Assembly (NCBI RefSeq): GCF_030294945.1
Contig: NZ_AP018448.1
Span: 8,900,501-8,964,500 of the forward strand
Direction of reading: 5' to 3'
From: Streptomyces graminofaciens
GTDB lineage: Bacteria > Actinomycetota > Actinomycetes > Streptomycetales > Streptomycetaceae
DNA: 64,000 bases
Both the position numbers and the translations under genes were made by a program. The notes under the pieces are model-generated. The model saw only the letters and a program-made list of their open reading frames with translations. It was not told where the DNA came from and did no database searches. The stretch's first letter is position 1. Each line of letters starts with the position of its first letter. Positions 1 through 7,999 of the stretch are shown here, in pieces.

Positions 1-2
1 CC

Positions 3-794
3 CAACTGGTCGTCCTGCTGCTCGCCACCGGCACCGCCTCCCTGGCCGAGCGCGTCGACAGCCACATCCCCTCGACGGTCGCCGCCGTCCTCTACGCCCT
101 GACCATCGGGATCGGCGTCCGCGTCTCCCGCCGCCGCGCCCGCGTCCACTGGCAGGCCCACCGCGCCGCCGCCGAGGTCGTCAAGTCCCTGGCCTGGCAG
201 TACATGGCCCACGGCGGCCCCTTCCACTCCCGGCTCGCCCACCCCGACGCCCTGTTCGCCCAACGCCTGGAGGAACGCCTCAGCGAACTGCGCAAGGTCG
301 GCTGGGAGGACGTGCGCGAGGACCCCGCCGACATGGGCGTCGCCCAGATCACCCCCGCCATGCGGGCCGTACGAGCCAAGCCGTTCGCGGCCCGCCGGGA
401 GATCTACCTCCGCGACCGCGTGCTGGAACAGCTCATCTGGTACGGCAACAGTGCCGGGCAGGCCCACGAGGCCTCCGCCCGCTGGTCCGGCCTGACGGCC
501 GCGCTGACCTCGCTGGCCCTGCTCGCCGCCGTACTGCGCGCCTTCGGCGTCATCGACGGCTGGGACCCGACCGGCCTCCTCAGTGCCGCCGCCGCGGCCG
601 GTGTGGCCTGGCAGGAGGTCCGCCGCCACCGCCCGCTCACCTACGCCCACAAACTCGTCGAACAGGACCTCGACACCCTGCGCATCGCCATGAGCACCAC
701 CGTCACCGAGGAGGCCTGGCCGGACACGGTCGCGGAGGCGGAGCGGCTGGTCTCACCGCAGCACACGGACTGGCTCGTACGGTTCGGATCCTGA
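3..794 (+). CDS. SLATT-domain (DUF4231) membrane protein, 5' end outside window
   Basis: The reading frame is open to the left edge, so the N-terminus is missing; 263 codons are visible. Two hydrophobic hairpins are seen: visible residues about 1-12 plus 21-37, and about 161-181 plus 187-203. Each is followed by a charged helical stretch (for example HWQAHRAAAEVVKSLAWQYM after the first). This two-helix layout, twice over, is that of DUF4231/SLATT domains, which are described as 2TM effectors tied to SLOG and SMODS proteins in nucleotide-dependent conflict systems. The neighbour, ending 25 bp away on the other strand, is a SLOG-type protein, which supports the call. An internal ATG at 204 is only a downstream Met, because the domain starts before it. 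Effector function is inferred from the family. Confidence 0.75.
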   Translation, partial: QLVVLLLATGTASLAERVDSHIPSTVAAVLYALTIGIGVRVSRRRARVHWQAHRAAAEVVKSLAWQYMAHGGPFHSRLAHPDALFAQRLEERLSELRKVGWEDVREDPADMGVAQITPAMRAVRAKPFAARREIYLRDRVLEQLIWYGNSAGQAHEASARWSGLTAALTSLALLAAVLRAFGVIDGWDPTGLLSAAAAAGVAWQEVRRHRPLTYAHKLVEQDLDTLRIAMSTTVTEEAWPDTVAEAERLVSPQHTDWLVRFGS

Positions 795-819
795 CGACGC
801 GCGAAGTGTGAGGGGAGCC

Positions 820-1320
820 TCAGGGGCGCCGTACGCCCGGGTTCCACAGGACCGTCACCGGCACCCCCGCGCGGCGCGCGTACGCCACGATGTCGGCCGT
901 GCCGCCGAGGCCCCGGGACGGGGCGCCGTCCCACACGGCGATCATGCGGTCGGCCCGGTCGACGATGTACCGGCCGGCCGCGTCGTACGCCTCCTCGTGC
1001 GTGCGCTCGTACGGCAGTTCCACCCGCTCGGCGCAGCACTTGAGGATGCGGCGGTACGACGTCCGTACGTCGTCGTCGCCGAGATGGGTCTCGTAGTCCA
1101 TGCCGGGGATCACGGCGGTCAGCGGAGCGCCGCACTCCAGGGCGATCTCCGCGAACACCTGATCGGCGCCGGCGGCGAGACTGCTCAGCGCCCACGGCGA
1201 CACGGCGGCCAGCAGCTCCGCGCGGATGCCCGAGCGGACCACGGACAGGGCGGCATCGGGAATCTGTCGGTGTCCGGTGATACCGATCCGGGTCACGGGC
1301 CCTGGCATCCGTGCGCTCAC
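820..1320 (-). CDS. SLOG-fold nucleotide-binding protein
   Basis: A 166-residue soluble protein. The N-terminal strand-loop carries GITGHRQ (about residues 13-19). It is followed by SSLAAGADQVFAEIAL and a late VDRADRMIAVWDG segment with a GGTAD loop, an arrangement typical of the SLOG (DprA/LOG-like Rossmannoid) superfamily that binds nucleotides or nucleotide-derived signals. It converges on the SLATT membrane protein. In the scheme of Burroughs and colleagues, SLOG proteins sense or make a nucleotide signal and SLATT proteins are the membrane effectors. Start could also be Met5; no strong ribosome-binding site decides. The family call is good, but ligand and role are inferred. Confidence 0.72.
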   Translation of the reverse strand: MSARMPGPVTRIGITGHRQIPDAALSVVRSGIRAELLAAVSPWALSSLAAGADQVFAEIALECGAPLTAVIPGMDYETHLGDDDVRTSYRRILKCCAERVELPYERTHEEAYDAAGRYIVDRADRMIAVWDGAPSRGLGGTADIVAYARRAGVPVTVLWNPGVRRP

Positions 1321-1478: not shown

Positions 1479-1526
1479 ACCGGCTCAGTCGCCCCCCGGG
1501 CCAGTCGCCCACCGGCTCAGTCGCCC
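1479..1526. repeat. Three 16-bp tandem repeats across the mbl stop codon
   Basis: Units at 1479-1494 and 1511-1526 are identical (ACCGGCTCAGTCGCCC). The middle unit, 1495-1510, differs at three positions. The stop codon of the mbl gene lies inside the rightmost unit, and as 16 is not a multiple of three the other copies carry TCA in other frames. A degenerate fourth unit may lie at about 1463-1478. Confidence 0.8.
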
Positions 1527-2572
1527 ACCGGGTCGAGGGCGAGCGGCTCGATGCGGCCCTCCAGCATGGCGCCCACGCCGAGGGCCGCGCAGACATCGGG
1601 CCGTTCGGCGATGTGGACGGGCATGCCGGTCGCGTGGCGGAGCATCTGGTCGAAGCCGGGCAGCAGGGCGCTGCCGCCGACCATCATGATCCCCCGGTCG
1701 GCGAGGTCGGCCACGAGGTCCGGCGGGCAGTCGCGCAGCACGTTGCCGATGCCGTCGACGACCGCGGTGAGCGGGGTCTGGATGGCGTCGCGCACGGCGG
1801 CCGTGTCCACCTGCACGGAACGGGCGAGCCCCGTCGCCACGTCCAGACCGTGGATCTCGGTGGAGGCCGGGCCGTGCGGGGTGAGGCCGTTGCCGGACAG
1901 GGCGAGCTGGAGCGGCCGTACGGACTGGCTGGGCAGGGTCAGCTCGTGCCGCAGCCGCAGATGCTGCACGATCGCGTGGTCGATGGCCTCGCCGCCGACG
2001 GGCACGCGGTCGGCGGTGACGATCGAGCCGAGGGAGAGCACGGCGAGCTGGGTGGCGGCGGCGCCGCACACCATGATCATGGTCGCTTCCGGCTGCTCGA
2101 CGGGCAGCCCGCAGCCGACCGCCGCCGCGATCAGCGTGTCGACCAGCTCCACCCGGCGGGCGCCGAGGCCGACGAGGGTCTCGATGGTGGCGCGCTGGGC
2201 GAGCGGGTCGGCGTCGTGCGGGGTGCAGGCGGCGGCGCGGAGCACCGGCTTGCGGCGCAGCGTACGGCGGATCTTGTCGCCCAGCAGGTGGTGCAGCATG
2301 CGCTGGGCCATCTCGATGTCGACGACCGTGCCGCCGGAGACCGGCCGCACGACCCGGATGTAGTCGGGCGTACGGCCCGTCATCTTCTCCGCGAACTCCC
2401 CGACCGCGATCAGCGCGCCCGTCCGCGTGTTCACGGCGGCCACGCTCGGCTGGTCCACGACCAGCCCCGCGCCCTTCACATACACGCGGGTCCGGGCCGC
2501 GCCCAGATCGACCCCGAAGTGGCAGCGCCGCAGCTGCTCCAGGCTGGGGGTACTGGCGTTGTTGACGGCCAT
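1517..2572 (-). CDS. mbl: MreB-like actin homologue Mbl
   Basis: A 351-residue actin-fold (MreB/Mbl/HSP70 superfamily) protein. Phosphate-1 loop is FGVDLGAARTRVYV (residues 19-32). The adenosine loop is MMVGGSALLPGF near the C-terminus. The phosphate-2 region reads IMVCGAAATQLAV where MreB proteins have a DxGGGT-like loop, so the Asp and glycines needed for normal ATP handling are gone. This fits the shortened, divergent Mbl of Streptomyces, which helps spore-wall assembly together with MreB. I chose the ATG at 2572 because GGGAGG lies 7-8 bases upstream on the minus strand. A longer frame runs to 2668 but lacks family sequence. It lies downstream of, and co-oriented with, the malonate genes, 199 bp away. 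Confidence 0.85.
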   Translation of the reverse strand: MAVNNASTPSLEQLRRCHFGVDLGAARTRVYVKGAGLVVDQPSVAAVNTRTGALIAVGEFAEKMTGRTPDYIRVVRPVSGGTVVDIEMAQRMLHHLLGDKIRRTLRRKPVLRAAACTPHDADPLAQRATIETLVGLGARRVELVDTLIAAAVGCGLPVEQPEATMIMVCGAAATQLAVLSLGSIVTADRVPVGGEAIDHAIVQHLRLRHELTLPSQSVRPLQLALSGNGLTPHGPASTEIHGLDVATGLARSVQVDTAAVRDAIQTPLTAVVDGIGNVLRDCPPDLVADLADRGIMMVGGSALLPGFDQMLRHATGMPVHIAERPDVCAALGVGAMLEGRIEPLALDPVGD

Positions 2573-2771
2573 GGCAGATCCTCCCGAGAGCACAGACCGT
2601 GGGGCCGCCGTTGGTCGTCGGCGGTTCCTTGCGTGGGGGCCGCCGTCGGTTCGGTGGTCCCCTTGCATCGTGCGGGGAGAGACGACGGGGTGCCTGTTCG
2701 GCTGGGCCGGGCGGGGTGCGGCTGGACGGGTGGAACTTTGATGGGGGGTCAGGACGGGGGCGGAGGACCTC

Positions 2772-4172
2772 CTACGTGCCGGTGGCGGCCCGCACGATGC
2801 CTCGTACGACCCCCAGCTCCACCAGATCCTGCGGCCGCACCCGCAGATCGTCGGCCGTGGCCCGCACCCGCTCCTCCGGGCGCTTCAGGATCGCCGCCGC
2901 CAGTTCCGGGGCGATCACCGAGAAGTAGCTGTCGGGGGTGGCCCAGGTGTTGCCGGGGGCGGCCAGCGCGAGGGCGCCGCCCGAGCCGCCCTCGCCGATG
3001 AGGAGGGTGGTGATCGGGGTGCGGGCGGTGGCGACCGTGGTGAACAGGTCCGCGATGGCCGCGCCCGCACCCTGCCGCTCCGCCTCCGCGTCGTTCGCGG
3101 CGCCGGGGGTGTCCACCAGGGTGAGTACGGGGATGCCGAGGCGGTCGGCGAGGCGGATCAGACGGGTGGCGGTGCGGTAGCCGGCGGGGCGGGTGGCCGT
3201 GCCGCACTGCGCCGCGTAGGCGACCGTCCGTCCGGCGCGCTCGCCGAAGCCGCAGAGCATGCCGGGGTCGGTTCCGCCGGAGCGGTCCCCGCGGATGGGT
3301 GTGCGGTGGGTGAAGTAGGTGTCCAGGTAGGCCTCGGCGCGGGGGCGTCGGGGGGAGCGGGCGCGTTCCACCGCCTCCCAGCCGGTGGTGGGGAGCGGCT
3401 GGGGGTCGTTCGTGGTCGCTCGCGCCGCTTCGGGTGCGTGGGGCGTGGGCAGGTGGGCCGGTGTCGGGGCCGGTTCCTTCGACGGGTTCGTCAGGAGGCG
3501 AAGCCACCGGCCCAGGACCGGCCGCAGCTCCGCCGGCGGAACCACCGCGTCCGCCGCGCCCGCCGCCACCTGTGACTCCGCCGTGTACGCCGTCGGGTCC
3601 GCGTCGGACGGGCGGACCCGGGAGCCGGCGAAGCCGACCTGGGCGGCGGGGAGGGCGAGGACGACGTCGGCGCCCGCGCCCAGCGTCGCCCAGCCGCCGC
3701 CCGTGGTCGGGTCGCGCAGGACCGCGATCTGGGGCAGCCCCGCCTCCCTCGTCAGCGCCGACTGCCGGGCCACCCGCTGGAGTTGGGTGAGGGCGCGCAT
3801 ACCCTCCTGCATCCGGCTGCCGCCCGTCGCGACGAGCGAGACGACGGGCAGCCGGTGCTCGCGCGCGTACGCGTACGCCGACTCCAGGCGGTCACCGGTG
3901 CGTTCGCCGAGCGAGCCGCCGAGGAAGCCGAACTCGAAGGCGATCAGCACCGCCTGCGTACCCTCGACCCGAGCGGTGCCGCACACCACCGACTCCTCCT
4001 CGCCGGTGCGCTCGGCGGCACGTGCGCGGGAGTCGTCGTAGCCGGGCCAGGCGAGGGGGCCGTCGGGCGCGTACTCCCGTGCGGGGACCGAGAGTTCGGT
4101 GAATCCCTCACCCGCCGTCACCACCGCCACGGCCTCGCGGGCCGAGAGCCGTCGCCCCGCCGGGTCAGTCAT
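2772..4172 (-). CDS. Fused acyl-CoA carboxyltransferase (AccD/AccA-like)
   Basis: A 466-residue protein with two crotonase-like carboxyltransferase halves. The N-terminal half has an oxyanion-type FEFGFLGGSLGERTGDR and VATGGSRMQEG. The C-terminal half has TPGAANDAEAERQGAGAAI and IGEGGSGGALAL, which are AccA-like glycine loops. No zinc-ribbon Cys cluster is present at the front, unlike bacterial AccD. A Pro/Thr-rich linker at about 225-250 joins the halves. The gene overlaps matB by 8 bp and so is translationally coupled to it. In that setting it probably moves a carboxyl group to or from a CoA thioester linked to malonyl-CoA. No biotin carboxylase or BCCP gene is nearby, so direction and substrate are open. 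Confidence 0.8.
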   Translation of the reverse strand: MTDPAGRRLSAREAVAVVTAGEGFTELSVPAREYAPDGPLAWPGYDDSRARAAERTGEEESVVCGTARVEGTQAVLIAFEFGFLGGSLGERTGDRLESAYAYAREHRLPVVSLVATGGSRMQEGMRALTQLQRVARQSALTREAGLPQIAVLRDPTTGGGWATLGAGADVVLALPAAQVGFAGSRVRPSDADPTAYTAESQVAAGAADAVVPPAELRPVLGRWLRLLTNPSKEPAPTPAHLPTPHAPEAARATTNDPQPLPTTGWEAVERARSPRRPRAEAYLDTYFTHRTPIRGDRSGGTDPGMLCGFGERAGRTVAYAAQCGTATRPAGYRTATRLIRLADRLGIPVLTLVDTPGAANDAEAERQGAGAAIADLFTTVATARTPITTLLIGEGGSGGALALAAPGNTWATPDSYFSVIAPELAAAILKRPEERVRATADDLRVRPQDLVELGVVRGIVRAATGT

Positions 4173-5616
4173 GCTTCAGAGCCCGCTTCATGATCTTCCC
4201 CATGTCGTTGCGGGGGAGCGCGTCGAGGAAGCGTACGGTCCGGGGGCGCTTGTGCGGGGCCAGACGGGCGGCCACGTGGTCGGCCAACTCCTCGGTGTCC
4301 GGCGGTGATTGAGGGTCGCTCGGCACGATCCAGGCCACCACGCGTTCGCCCAGGTCGGCGTCCGGTTCCCCGGTGACCGCCGCCTCGCGCACCCCCGGGT
4401 GTTCGAGCAGCGCGTTCTCGATCTCGCCCGCCCCGATCTTGTAGCCGCCGCTCTTGATCAGGTCGGTGGCCTTGCGGCCGACGATGCGGACATAGCCGTC
4501 GGGGTCGCGGACCGCCATGTCGCCGGTGCGGAACCAGCCGTCCGCCGTGAACGCGGCCGCCGTCGCGTCCGGGCGGTTCAGATACTCGGAGAACAGGTTC
4601 GGGCCGCGCACCTGGATCTCGCCGACCGTCTCGCCGTCGTACGACGCCACCGGCGTCCCGTCCTCCTCGACCAGCCGCAGCTCCACGCCCGGCAGCGGTA
4701 CGCCGACCGTTCCGGCGCGTGGTTCGCCGTCCGCTCGGACGCTCGTGTTCATCAGCGTCTCCGTCATGCCGTACCGCTCGATGACCCGCCGCCCGGTCGC
4801 CGCCGCGATCCGCTCGTGGTCGTGCACCGGCAGCGCGGCCGACCCCGAGACCAGCAGCCGCGCCCGGCCCAGCGCCTTCGCCAGCTCCGGGTCCTCGGGC
4901 AGGGACTCGGCGATCCGGTGGTACATCGTCGGCACCCCGAACAGCATCGTCGCGCCGCCCGCCAGTTCGCGCGCCACGCCCTCCGTCGAGAACCGGCCCA
5001 GATGGCGTACGGAGCCGCCGCGCCGCAGCGGGCCCAGGATGCCCAGCACCAGCCCGTGCACATGGAACAGCGGCAGACCGTGGACCAGTACGTCGTCCCC
5101 CGTCCACTGCCATGCGTCGGCGAGCGCGTCCAGGGTGGTGGCGAGGGCCCGGCGGGGGATGACGGCACCCTTGGGCGGGCCGGTGGTGCCGGAGGTGTAG
5201 ACGACGAGGGCGGGGTCCTCGTCGCCCGCGTCCTCTGCGGGAGCCGGGTCCCCGGTGGCGTACACGTCGACGTCCACGCGCGCCAAGTCACCCAACGGGG
5301 AAGGGAGTTCGTCACCCGGCGCGGCCAGCACCAGCGTCGGCGCGCTGTCGGCCAGGATGTGGCCCAGCTCCTTCTCCCCGGACTTCGGGTTCAGCGGTAC
5401 GGCCGCCACGCCCGCCCGGAGTGCCGCGACGACGGCCACGGCGGTCTCCAGCGCCGGGGTCGCCCACACGGCCACCCGGCCGCCCCCTCTGATCCGGTCC
5501 GCCAGAGCGCCGGTCGCGGCGGCCAGCTCCGCGTACGTCAAGGCACGGTCACCGAACCGCAGGGCGGGCCGGTCCGCCGGGGCGTCGCCGGTCAGGGCCG
5601 GGAAGAGAGGGGACAC
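4165..5616 (-). CDS. matB: Malonyl-CoA synthetase
   Basis: A 483-residue ANL-superfamily ligase that activates malonate (and often methylmalonate) to the CoA thioester through an acyl-adenylate. The P-loop-like YTSGTTGPPKG is at about residues 140-150, the A5 motif is ERYGMTET, the A7/A8 region has TGDMAVRDPDGYVRIVGRKATDLIKSGG split by the hinge, and the C-terminal catalytic Lys is in RNDMGKIMKRAL (K474). The text agrees closely with what I remember of S. coelicolor MatB (SCO2444), which supplies polyketide extender units. It sits between a matC-like carrier and the carboxyltransferase, which fits malonate import followed by activation. Start ATG 5616; length normal for MatB. Confidence 0.93.
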   Translation of the reverse strand: MSPLFPALTGDAPADRPALRFGDRALTYAELAAATGALADRIRGGGRVAVWATPALETAVAVVAALRAGVAAVPLNPKSGEKELGHILADSAPTLVLAAPGDELPSPLGDLARVDVDVYATGDPAPAEDAGDEDPALVVYTSGTTGPPKGAVIPRRALATTLDALADAWQWTGDDVLVHGLPLFHVHGLVLGILGPLRRGGSVRHLGRFSTEGVARELAGGATMLFGVPTMYHRIAESLPEDPELAKALGRARLLVSGSAALPVHDHERIAAATGRRVIERYGMTETLMNTSVRADGEPRAGTVGVPLPGVELRLVEEDGTPVASYDGETVGEIQVRGPNLFSEYLNRPDATAAAFTADGWFRTGDMAVRDPDGYVRIVGRKATDLIKSGGYKIGAGEIENALLEHPGVREAAVTGEPDADLGERVVAWIVPSDPQSPPDTEELADHVAARLAPHKRPRTVRFLDALPRNDMGKIMKRALKHD

Positions 5617-5683
5617 GGTCGTACTCCTTAGCTGTTGCCGTCGTTCTGCTGTTCTACCGCTGCTGCCATGTTCGCCCGGGTGT

Positions 5684-7057
5684 CTACCCCCAGCCCGGCA
5701 CGACCAGTACCAGCCACACCACCGCCGGTACCGCCGCCACCACGATCCCTCCGTACATCATCAGCTGCCGGAAGAAGCGCTCACGGTCGACGTCCGGTGC
5801 CGCGGCCAGCACCAGCGCGCCGTTCGTGGAGAACGGGCTCACGTCCACGACCGTCGCCGACACGGCCAGGGCCGCCACCATCCCCACGGCCCCGATCTCG
5901 CCCTGCGCCAGGAACGGCACCGCAAGCGGGATCAGCGCGCCCATGATCCCCACCGAGGAGGCGAAGGCCGACACGATCGCGCCGATGTAGCAGAGCAGTA
6001 CGGCCGCCAGCAGCGGTACGCCGATGCCGCCGACGCCCTCGCCCGCCCAGGTGATGGTGCCCATCTCGTCCAGCACGCCGACATAGGTGAGGACACCGCA
6101 GATCAGCAGAACCGTCGACCAGGCGATCTCCCCGACCGCCTTGCGGCTGTCCGTCGGCCACACGGTGCTCAGTACGACGGCGAGGGTGATCGCGGTCAGG
6201 CCCGCGTCGAGGTCGAGGGCGAGTACGGCGACGACGAGCGCGACCAGGGCGGTGAGGGTGGCGACGCGGGCGGGGGTGAGACGGGTGGTGTCGGGGGCGT
6301 CGGTGCGGGTGGCGACGGTGGTCGCGACACCCCCGGAACCCCCGGTGCCGGTGCCGGTGCCAGTAACTGTGCCTGTGTCGGTACCGGTGGCTGTCCCGCC
6401 CTCCGGCGGCAGTTCCTTGCCCTTCCCGTCACCGGTCTCCACCGACCCCTGAGCCCACAGCTTCAGCCCGCCGAAGAGCACGAACACGACCCCGGCGATG
6501 ACGACGTTCACGATCAGCGACGCGAGGAACAGCGCGATCTCGTTCCCCGGCAGCTTCTCGCGCTCCACGATGCCGTTGACGATCGAACCGTAGATGCTGA
6601 TCGGCGAGAAACCGCCGCCCTGGGCGCCGTGCACGACCATCGCGCCCATCAGCAGCGGACTGATCCCGTAGCGGGCGGCGAAGCTGAGCGCGATCGGCGC
6701 GACGATCGCGACGGCGGCCGGGCTGACCGCGCCGATCGCCGTGAGCGCGCCGGTGATCGCGAACATCACCCAGGGGATCAGCGCCACCCGCCCGCGGACG
6801 AGCCGGATCGAGGCGTGCACCAGCCAGTCGGTGGTGCCGTTGGCCCGGGCGATCGCGAAGAGATACGTGACGCCGACGAGGACGACGAACAGGTCGCCGG
6901 GGAAGCCGGCGAAGATGCCGTCCGCGTCGAGGTCGGCGACGAGCGTGCCGACCCCGAAGGCGGCCGCGAAGGCGAGCGCGCCCATGTTGACGGAGCGGGT
7001 GGTGGCGATGACGAACACCACGGCGAGGACGAGGATCGAGACGAGTTCGGGGGACAT
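5684..7057 (-). CDS. MatC-type dicarboxylate (malonate) carrier
   Basis: A 457-residue integral membrane protein of the SLC13/arsenite-permease superfamily with the MatC N-terminal domain (residues about 1-145: MSPELVSILVLAVVF…, PGDLFVVLVGVTYLF). Ten or more hydrophobic segments are visible. An unusual cytoplasmic or periplasmic loop near residues 215-260 is made of Gly-Thr repeats (GTGTDTGTVTGTGTGTGG) and is probably unstructured. With matB 67 bp downstream on the same strand, malonate is the best-guess substrate. Transcription starts from the divergent region shared with the GntR gene, where mirrored palindromes lie. Confidence 0.82.
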   Translation of the reverse strand: MSPELVSILVLAVVFVIATTRSVNMGALAFAAAFGVGTLVADLDADGIFAGFPGDLFVVLVGVTYLFAIARANGTTDWLVHASIRLVRGRVALIPWVMFAITGALTAIGAVSPAAVAIVAPIALSFAARYGISPLLMGAMVVHGAQGGGFSPISIYGSIVNGIVEREKLPGNEIALFLASLIVNVVIAGVVFVLFGGLKLWAQGSVETGDGKGKELPPEGGTATGTDTGTVTGTGTGTGGSGGVATTVATRTDAPDTTRLTPARVATLTALVALVVAVLALDLDAGLTAITLAVVLSTVWPTDSRKAVGEIAWSTVLLICGVLTYVGVLDEMGTITWAGEGVGGIGVPLLAAVLLCYIGAIVSAFASSVGIMGALIPLAVPFLAQGEIGAVGMVAALAVSATVVDVSPFSTNGALVLAAAPDVDRERFFRQLMMYGGIVVAAVPAVVWLVLVVPGWG

Positions 7058-7141
7058 ACGGGCTCCCGTCGTTGGGTCCCGGAGCGGCTGGGAGTGGGAG
7101 TGGGGGTGGGGGTGGGGGGAGGCCGGAAGGGTGACCGGGAA

Positions 7142-7237
7142 TGGCCGAGTGGCTCAGCCACTTACGGGTGGTCAGCCTGAGCGCGTACGCCCGTCGCGTC
7201 AAGAGGTCGCGCGAGAATTGGCTCAGCCACTCGGCCA
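7142..7237. promoter_or_regulatory. Mirrored palindromic operator pair in the matC/gntR divergent promoter
   Basis: TGGCCGAGTGGCTCAGCCA (7142-7160) and TGGCTCAGCCACTCGGCCA (7219-7237) are reverse complements apart from the central base. Each copy itself holds the dyad TGGCT-C-AGCCA. The two 19-bp blocks flank a 58-bp spacer between the carrier gene and the FadR-type regulator, as expected for operators of that regulator that close both promoters, possibly by looping. That the adjacent GntR protein binds here is inferred. Confidence 0.7.
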
Positions 7238-7288
7238 CCTGCCCGCCCGGCGGACGGTGGGTTACGCTCCCGAGGAGAGGGGGACCCC

Positions 7289-7999
7289 GTGACCGACGCC
7301 CTGCGCCCCATGACGAAACAGCGCCTCTACGAACAGGTGCTCGACCGGCTGCGCCAGTACGTCGCCGAGGGCGGCCTGCGCGCCGGCGACCGGCTGCCGC
7401 CCGAACGCGATCTGGCCCAGCGGCTCGGCGTCAGCCGCGCCTCCGTGAAGCAGGCGATCGTGGTCCTGGAGGTCCAGGGCCTGGTGGAGGCACGGCACGG
7501 CGGCGGCACGTACCTGGTCCGCGACAGCCTCGACGTCGAACCGGTCGAGAGGATGGTCGAGCGCCGCCGGCGTCTGCCCGACGTCCTGGAGGCCCGCGAG
7601 GCCCTGGAGACGAAGCTCGCCGAACTGGCCGCCGAGCGCCGTACGGAGGACGACCTGGCCGCGATGCGGTCGGCGCTCACCCACATGGCCGAGGAGATCG
7701 AGCGGGACGGCCACGGCATCGAGGGCGACCGGCTCTTCCACTCGGCGGTGACCGCGGCAGCCCACAGCAGCCTGCTCGCCGAGTTCATGCGCTCCATCGC
7801 CGACCAGATCGCCGAGAGCCGCACCGAGTCCCTCCGCCAGCCCGGCCGCCCCACCCGCTCCCTCGCCCAGCACCAGGCCATCCTCGACGCGATCGCCGCA
7901 GGCCGCCCGAGGCAGGCGGCCACGGCCATGCGCCGCCACGTCCGTACGGTCGCGAAGGTCCGCCTGCTGGACTGGGAGCCGGACGACTCGCCCGCCTAG
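7289..7999 (+). CDS. FadR-type GntR transcriptional regulator
   Basis: A 236-residue regulator. The N-terminal winged helix (about residues 8-75) contains the GntR signature LPPERDLAQRLGVSRASVKQAIVVLE and the wing ARHGGGTYL. The C-terminal helical FCD effector domain follows (VLEAREALETKLAELAAER… with the His/Asp metal or acid-binding pattern FHSAVTAAAHS). It is divergent from the malonate carrier and probably a malonate-responsive repressor like MatR. The GTG start at 7289 follows GGAGAGG. Mirrored palindromes in its promoter are good candidates for its own operators. Confidence 0.85.
   Translation: MTDALRPMTKQRLYEQVLDRLRQYVAEGGLRAGDRLPPERDLAQRLGVSRASVKQAIVVLEVQGLVEARHGGGTYLVRDSLDVEPVERMVERRRRLPDVLEAREALETKLAELAAERRTEDDLAAMRSALTHMAEEIERDGHGIEGDRLFHSAVTAAAHSSLLAEFMRSIADQIAESRTESLRQPGRPTRSLAQHQAILDAIAAGRPRQAATAMRRHVRTVAKVRLLDWEPDDSPA

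Follow-up and report, generated by a model that had tools for sequence, protein, structure and literature searches.

A convergent SLATT-SLOG gene pair adjoins Fxs peptide/STAND clusters in Streptomyces

SLATT and SLOG proteins are reportedly partners in the nucleotide-centric conflict systems described by Burroughs et al. in 2015 (NAR), in which SLATT is said to be the predicted nucleotide-gated membrane effector. The same two protein classes are encoded by a gene pair at the left end of a 64,000-nucleotide stretch of the Streptomyces graminofaciens genome (NZ_AP018448.1, positions 8,900,501 to 8,964,500; the window). The Streptomyces pair differs from the described systems in three respects: its genes are convergent rather than in one operon, its SLATT protein is a SLATT_3+SLATT_1 tandem, and it lies beside an Fxs cluster. 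The locus is a variant of known SLATT-SLOG systems, tied to Fxs peptide/STAND clusters. Of the readings we weighed, the one we hold to be somewhat probable is that an Fxs STAND/TIR conflict system acts through the pair as its nucleotide-gated membrane effector, in self-sacrifice defence and possibly against phage.

Three other described systems bear on this comparison. FxSxx systems carry TIR-AP-ATPases (Kaur et al. 2020, eLife, PMC7159879); as portrayed in the available passages of that paper, they share with the Streptomyces locus an FxSxx precursor, the radical-SAM/SPASM protein FxsB, and a TIR-NB-ARC-TPR ATPase with a ParA-like domain. Those passages name SLATT with GTPase-centric systems only, and neither SLATT nor SLOG with FxSxx. 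Unlike the peptide-processing systems of Kaur et al., the S. graminofaciens FxsB lacks an HExxH motif. In the TIR-SLATT systems of firmicute phages, SLATT adjoins a nucleotide-signal protein, as here, but TIR replaces SLOG; the same source, in the portions consulted, states that SLATT is, by prediction, under the control of ADP-ribose derivatives and that the YpsA-like SLOG clade has members that sense cyclic ADP-ribose (PMC9503650). Lastly, a SLATT protein is essential for phage defence by DRT10, whose signal maker is a reverse transcriptase plus RNA; SLOG and Fxs are not mentioned in the passages of that paper available to us (PMC12632851).

Profile searches recovered SLATT_3 (163.4 bits) and SLATT_1 (129 bits), each with a curated cut-off of 26.3, within one 303-amino-acid (aa) protein. 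Two fused SLATT-like units had been proposed by an earlier reading made from the letters alone (the sequence-only reading), and the profiles bear it out. That reading had also described two hydrophobic hairpins. The first is a clear transmembrane prediction, whereas the second has one clear hydrophobic segment (residues 206-224) and another helix that is modelled, its hydrophobicity being too low for a call. Among 276 genomes sampled across the phylum, SLATT was matched in three, of which two were Streptomyces and the third showed only 28% identity; an orthologue outside Streptomyces is at best rare.

The partner protein has a SLOG-type Rossmannoid fold, with YpsA, DprA and ShosA as its nearest folds. 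In an alignment (A2) of 44 proteins, hand-picked among 155 listed, G47 and D49 are invariant (44/44), giving the GxD/E signature of the YpsA clade; mutants of this signature in YpsA are impaired in foci, according to the parts of the source available (PMC6459960). Of the curated profiles in Pfam and NCBIfam, none for a SLOG subfamily matched at E≤1; the best match was DNA_processg_A, at E 0.048. The SLOG assignment of the sequence-only reading therefore stands by fold and motif, unaccompanied by a curated profile, and the protein belongs to no listed Pfam or NCBIfam SLOG subfamily.

LOG phosphoribohydrolases carry the motif PGGxGTxxE. The corresponding loop of the SLOG proteins has an acidic residue at T+2 in 44/44 and I, V or T at T+3 in 44/44, with glutamate in 0/44, and membership in the LOG phosphoribohydrolases was rejected on this absence. 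The same residue bears on the idea that SLOG is an enzyme of LOG-glycosidase type, making or removing a nucleotide to whose product SLATT answers. We consider this unlikely, given the missing glutamate and the nearest folds, none of which, to our knowledge, is a nucleotide hydrolase. A second SLOG paralogue in the S. graminofaciens genome (G000:C1:875307-875777, 38% identity) lies directly 3' of a 201-aa gene, which has no Pfam match over cut-off.

We surveyed 295 Streptomyces genomes for the two genes; all counts of linkage and co-occurrence describe a single genus, with kinship ignored. SLATT was matched in 100 genomes; the SLOG query was matched in 174, a number that takes in paralogues of about 40% identity. 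At the thresholds chosen (SLATT E≤1e-50; the best 90 SLOG places of a longer list, excluding lower-ranked paralogues of ≤45% identity; cut-offs fixed after the lists were inspected), both genes occur in 89 genomes, one alone in none and neither in 206. Four SLATT matches were split in two, and with the first half of each removed 103 of 107 rows were used; 89 of these places share a contig with one of the best 90 SLOG places, and the two genes are convergent in all 89 pairs. They lie <3 kb apart in 87 pairs and <330 bp apart in 85, with outliers at 1.2, 1.5, 4.0 and 10.7 kb. The tail-to-tail pair that the sequence-only reading had reported, with 25 bp between the stops, is thus confirmed and recurs in related genomes: the SLATT profiles match, and the genes co-occur in 89/89 genomes at these thresholds. 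Neither an intrinsic-terminator-like site nor an unusual RNA fold was detected around the 25-bp gap, and overlapping 3' ends of the two transcripts are possible. These results indicate that the two genes are inherited as a pair.

The sequence to the left of the window, to which the sequence-only reading had pointed, holds a cluster divergent from the SLATT gene: FxsA-FxsB-AAC-FxsC-FxsT, the last being a TIR/NB-ARC/TPR protein. The FxsA-type precursor is a 76-aa open reading frame (ORF) adjoining FxsB and ending FNSSL, in keeping with the FxSxx ending; it scores 15 bits with TIGR04268, below the cut-off of 28. The radical-SAM/SPASM maturase FxsB scores 594 bits with TIGR04269 (cut-off 370) and 332.7 bits with the 'inactivated' form NF040587. 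HExxH is present in three of 35 other FxsB frames; a zincin-like HExxH metallopeptidase is absent from the S. graminofaciens FxsB, and no search for a separate peptidase gene was made. AAC is an AAC(3)-like protein. The TIR-like FxsC (440 aa), scored on the 413 residues inside the sequence retrieved, reached 202.5 bits with NF040588 (cut-off 130) and 146.5 with TIGR04276 (cut-off 55). FxsT, of about 1,312 aa, exceeds the cut-off for AAA_31/ParA-like and TPR profiles and falls short of it for NB-ARC (23.4 bits, cut-off 23.5) and TIR_2 (17.4, cut-off 28); in one relative (L066) NB-ARC and TIR_2 are both over cut-off, and in another (L063) NB-ARC only. A longer, 1737-codon open frame for FxsT was rejected, its first 425 codons overlapping FxsC in another frame. 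No CD-NTase (SMODS) was found among the scanned SLATT, SLOG, FxsA, FxsB, AAC, FxsC, FxsT and MreB proteins.

For 75 of the 89 pairs, at least one of 150 FxsC matches taken from a longer list lies within 15 kb, always upstream of SLATT. FxsC is on the opposite strand in 59 of these; in the remaining 16 it shares the strand of SLATT and the gene order differs. Among the other 14 pairs are some at contig ends and some with a weaker FxsC copy; FxsC, FxsB and FxsT adjoin the pair in two of them (G007, G222), and FxsB does so in a third (G231). Gene content was counted at 31 SLATT loci, with L066 and L110 taken as one locus and L082 carrying a distant SLATT: SLOG was present in 30, FxsB in 27, AAC in 24, FxsC in 24, FxsT in 23 and MreB in 14. 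At 23 of the 27 loci with FxsB, the 1.5 kb upstream of that gene include an ORF with an F-x-S-x-x ending. The linkage of pair and Fxs cluster is well supported within Streptomyces. The sequence-only reading had cast the pair as a nucleotide-signal conflict system; its membership in that class stands, but the two genes make up only part of the neighbourhood: an Fxs peptide/STAND-TIR cluster adjoins them in most genomes.

Fxs loci without the pair offer a further comparison. We picked 14 FxsC places for their lack of a nearby pair, two of them from S. graminofaciens; at E≤1e-3 neither SLATT nor SLOG is encoded at any of them, and FxsB is present at ten. Five (L146, L150, L151, L152, L155) represent one chromosomal site, with MreB, a GAF histidine kinase and FxsB, from which the pair is absent; at L145, MreB and the kinase adjoin FxsC, and FxsB is absent. 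In the pair-bearing loci L067, L070 and L112, this kinase separates MreB from SLOG. At this site SLOG and SLATT therefore lie together between kinase and FxsB, or are both absent, and the kinase may be a long-standing neighbour of the Fxs genes there.

Relatives of the two proteins also meet elsewhere. An actinomycete 555-aa frame (fusion 1) joins SLOG (38% identity) to a part with multiple transmembrane segments (hydrophobic at 286-304, 310-328, 433-451 and 462-480; SLATT_3 18.1 bits, below cut-off). Fusion 2, a protein of 577 aa from Caballeronia sp. SBC2 whose gene adjoins a TIR gene, joins SLOG to DUF4231 (30.9 bits, cut-off 24.7), with segments at 301-319, 334-352 and 462-480 and a marginal one at 238-256. 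SLOG relatives occur in TIR-caspase operons of Agrobacterium, Rhizobium, Methylorubrum and an actinobacterium (G524), and one adjoins a caspase in a Streptomyces genome (G210). On a plasmid of Streptomyces sp. NBC_00984 (L083 4398-5492), a SLOG paralogue directly follows the gene for 8xMP, an octameric membrane protein, and is another SLOG + small membrane protein pair. A tandem SLATT gene of a Rhodococcus plasmid (L141 3983-5852) is tail to tail with a TIR gene, 58 bp away: convergent like the Streptomyces pair, with TIR in SLOG's place. No Fxs gene is among the features listed for that stretch. A Rhizobium tandem SLATT, identified through a DUF4231 annotation and a 25.6% match, likewise adjoins a TIR gene. 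As a separate observation, 5.2-kb enterobacterial plasmids (NZ_CP064912.1 and others) encode a tandem-SLATT-like DUF4231 protein of about 24% identity.

This company bears on whether the pair has housekeeping or developmental roles without conflict function, for example as an ion or osmotic channel with a nucleotide-sensing regulator. The genes are chromosomal with ordinary Streptomyces codon bias (third-position GC content, GC3, 0.92), MreB is a frequent neighbour, and Bacillus YpsA influences cell division, as stated in the available parts of the source (PMC6459960); yet the distribution is patchy and all-or-none (89/295), and the same families keep company with TIR, NB-ARC and caspase. We regard such roles as very unlikely.

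Table 1. Features of the SLATT-SLOG locus and the adjoining Fxs cluster (window coordinates unless stated).
Feature	Position	Strand	Remarks
SLATT_3+SLATT_1 membrane protein, 303 aa	1..794	+	ATG left of window, L002 4883
First predicted transmembrane hairpin, residues 37-79	1..119	+	Begins left of window
SLATT_3 domain, residues 17-172	1..398	+	Begins left of window; profile match
SLATT_1 domain, residues 175-297	405..773	+	Profile match
Second hairpin region, about residues 206-247	498..623	+	Hydrophobicity and model
Gap between the two stop codons, 25 bp	795..819	.	
YpsA-like SLOG protein, 166 aa from GTG 1320 or 162 aa from ATG 1308	820..1320	-	
GGT-A/G-D/E loop	892..906	-	Alignment of 44
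GxD motif (G47, D49 of 162-aa form)	1162..1170	-	Alignment of 44
FxsA-FxsB-AAC-FxsC cluster	L002 1-4480 = window -4999 to -520		
FxsT	L114 3485-7420		ATG overlaps FxsC stop

Beyond the pair on the SLOG side, the window encodes an MreB-family protein (1520-2668, minus strand; 355.7 bits). It is followed at 2772-7999 by genes resembling those for malonate use (carboxyltransferase-like, malonyl-CoA synthetase-like, transporter, GntR regulator), with names assigned by reading alone.

FxSxx peptides and SLATT proteins alike are conflict components by prediction, with putative roles in Streptomyces. The favoured reading, in which the pair serves an Fxs STAND/TIR conflict system, draws on the domain identities, fold, co-occurrence, orientation, linkage and fusions described above. 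The Fxs cluster beside the pair changes what would generate the signal: damage or infection would be sensed by FxsT, a putative STAND NTPase with ParA-like, TIR, NB-ARC and TPR regions, together with the TIR-like FxsC. These two would make an NAD-derived signal or pass it on, and FxsA, once the radical-SAM enzyme FxsB has modified it, would be a possible peptide trigger or toxin. The YpsA-like SLOG protein would bind an NAD/ADP-ribose-type nucleotide that sets the state of SLATT, making or destroying the nucleotide being less likely; SLOG may activate, restrain or degrade. The tandem SLATT protein, a predicted oligomeric membrane protein, would be the pore; its opening would permeabilise the membrane and lead to death or arrest of the compartment.

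Several observations weigh against this reading, and some favour a rival that treats the pair as self-contained, either as sensor and effector or as toxin and restrainer, and its Fxs linkage as inherited synteny rather than shared function. Half of the listed FxsC places (75 of 150) are farther than 15 kb from any pair, 17 genomes have such pair-distant FxsC and no pair, and both of the S. graminofaciens FxsC matches examined, of four, lack one (L143, L144). The pair of G274 is retained with FxsB and FxsA only, FxsC being unmatched and FxsT absent at E≤1e-12, and at L104 the 5.3 kb upstream of SLATT hold no FxsB. SLOG relatives occupy several non-Fxs contexts, other paralogue loci having TPR, HTH, HAD, GNAT, 2'-5' ligase-like, AAA or unknown neighbours, so that paralogue neighbourhoods overall give mixed evidence. 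Two second SLATT copies (G261:C131, G182:C2) and 12 distant SLATT places are without this SLOG, and a second SLOG copy (G235:C1) is without SLATT. Convergent genes are not co-transcribed, so the layout does not imply co-regulation. SLATT had no match in PADLOC, and its model retrieved nothing with Foldseek at E≤0.001. When the SLATT family profile was compared with the transmembrane part of fusion 1, the match was not significant (probability 2); fusion 1 is therefore a similar layout whose homology to SLATT is unproven. Synteny alone, however, sits poorly with an Fxs cluster that adjoins the pair in two gene orders (59/75 and 16/75), and with the retention of MreB, the neighbour on the other side, in 14/31 loci versus FxsB in 27/31. 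We therefore view the self-contained pair as doubtful, although the strongest of the rivals.

The recurrent SLATT-SLOG-Fxs island gives a concrete candidate circuit of peptide, STAND-TIR protein, nucleotide, SLOG and pore, and one chromosomal site provides a natural comparison with and without the pair. In a bolder and decidedly unlikely version, the FxSxx cyclophane peptide would be a danger signal between compartments, acting through FxsT, nucleotide and SLOG on the SLATT pore to coordinate the sacrifice of hyphal compartments. If such a peptide-to-pore alarm were true, a ribosomal natural product would control nucleotide-gated immunity.
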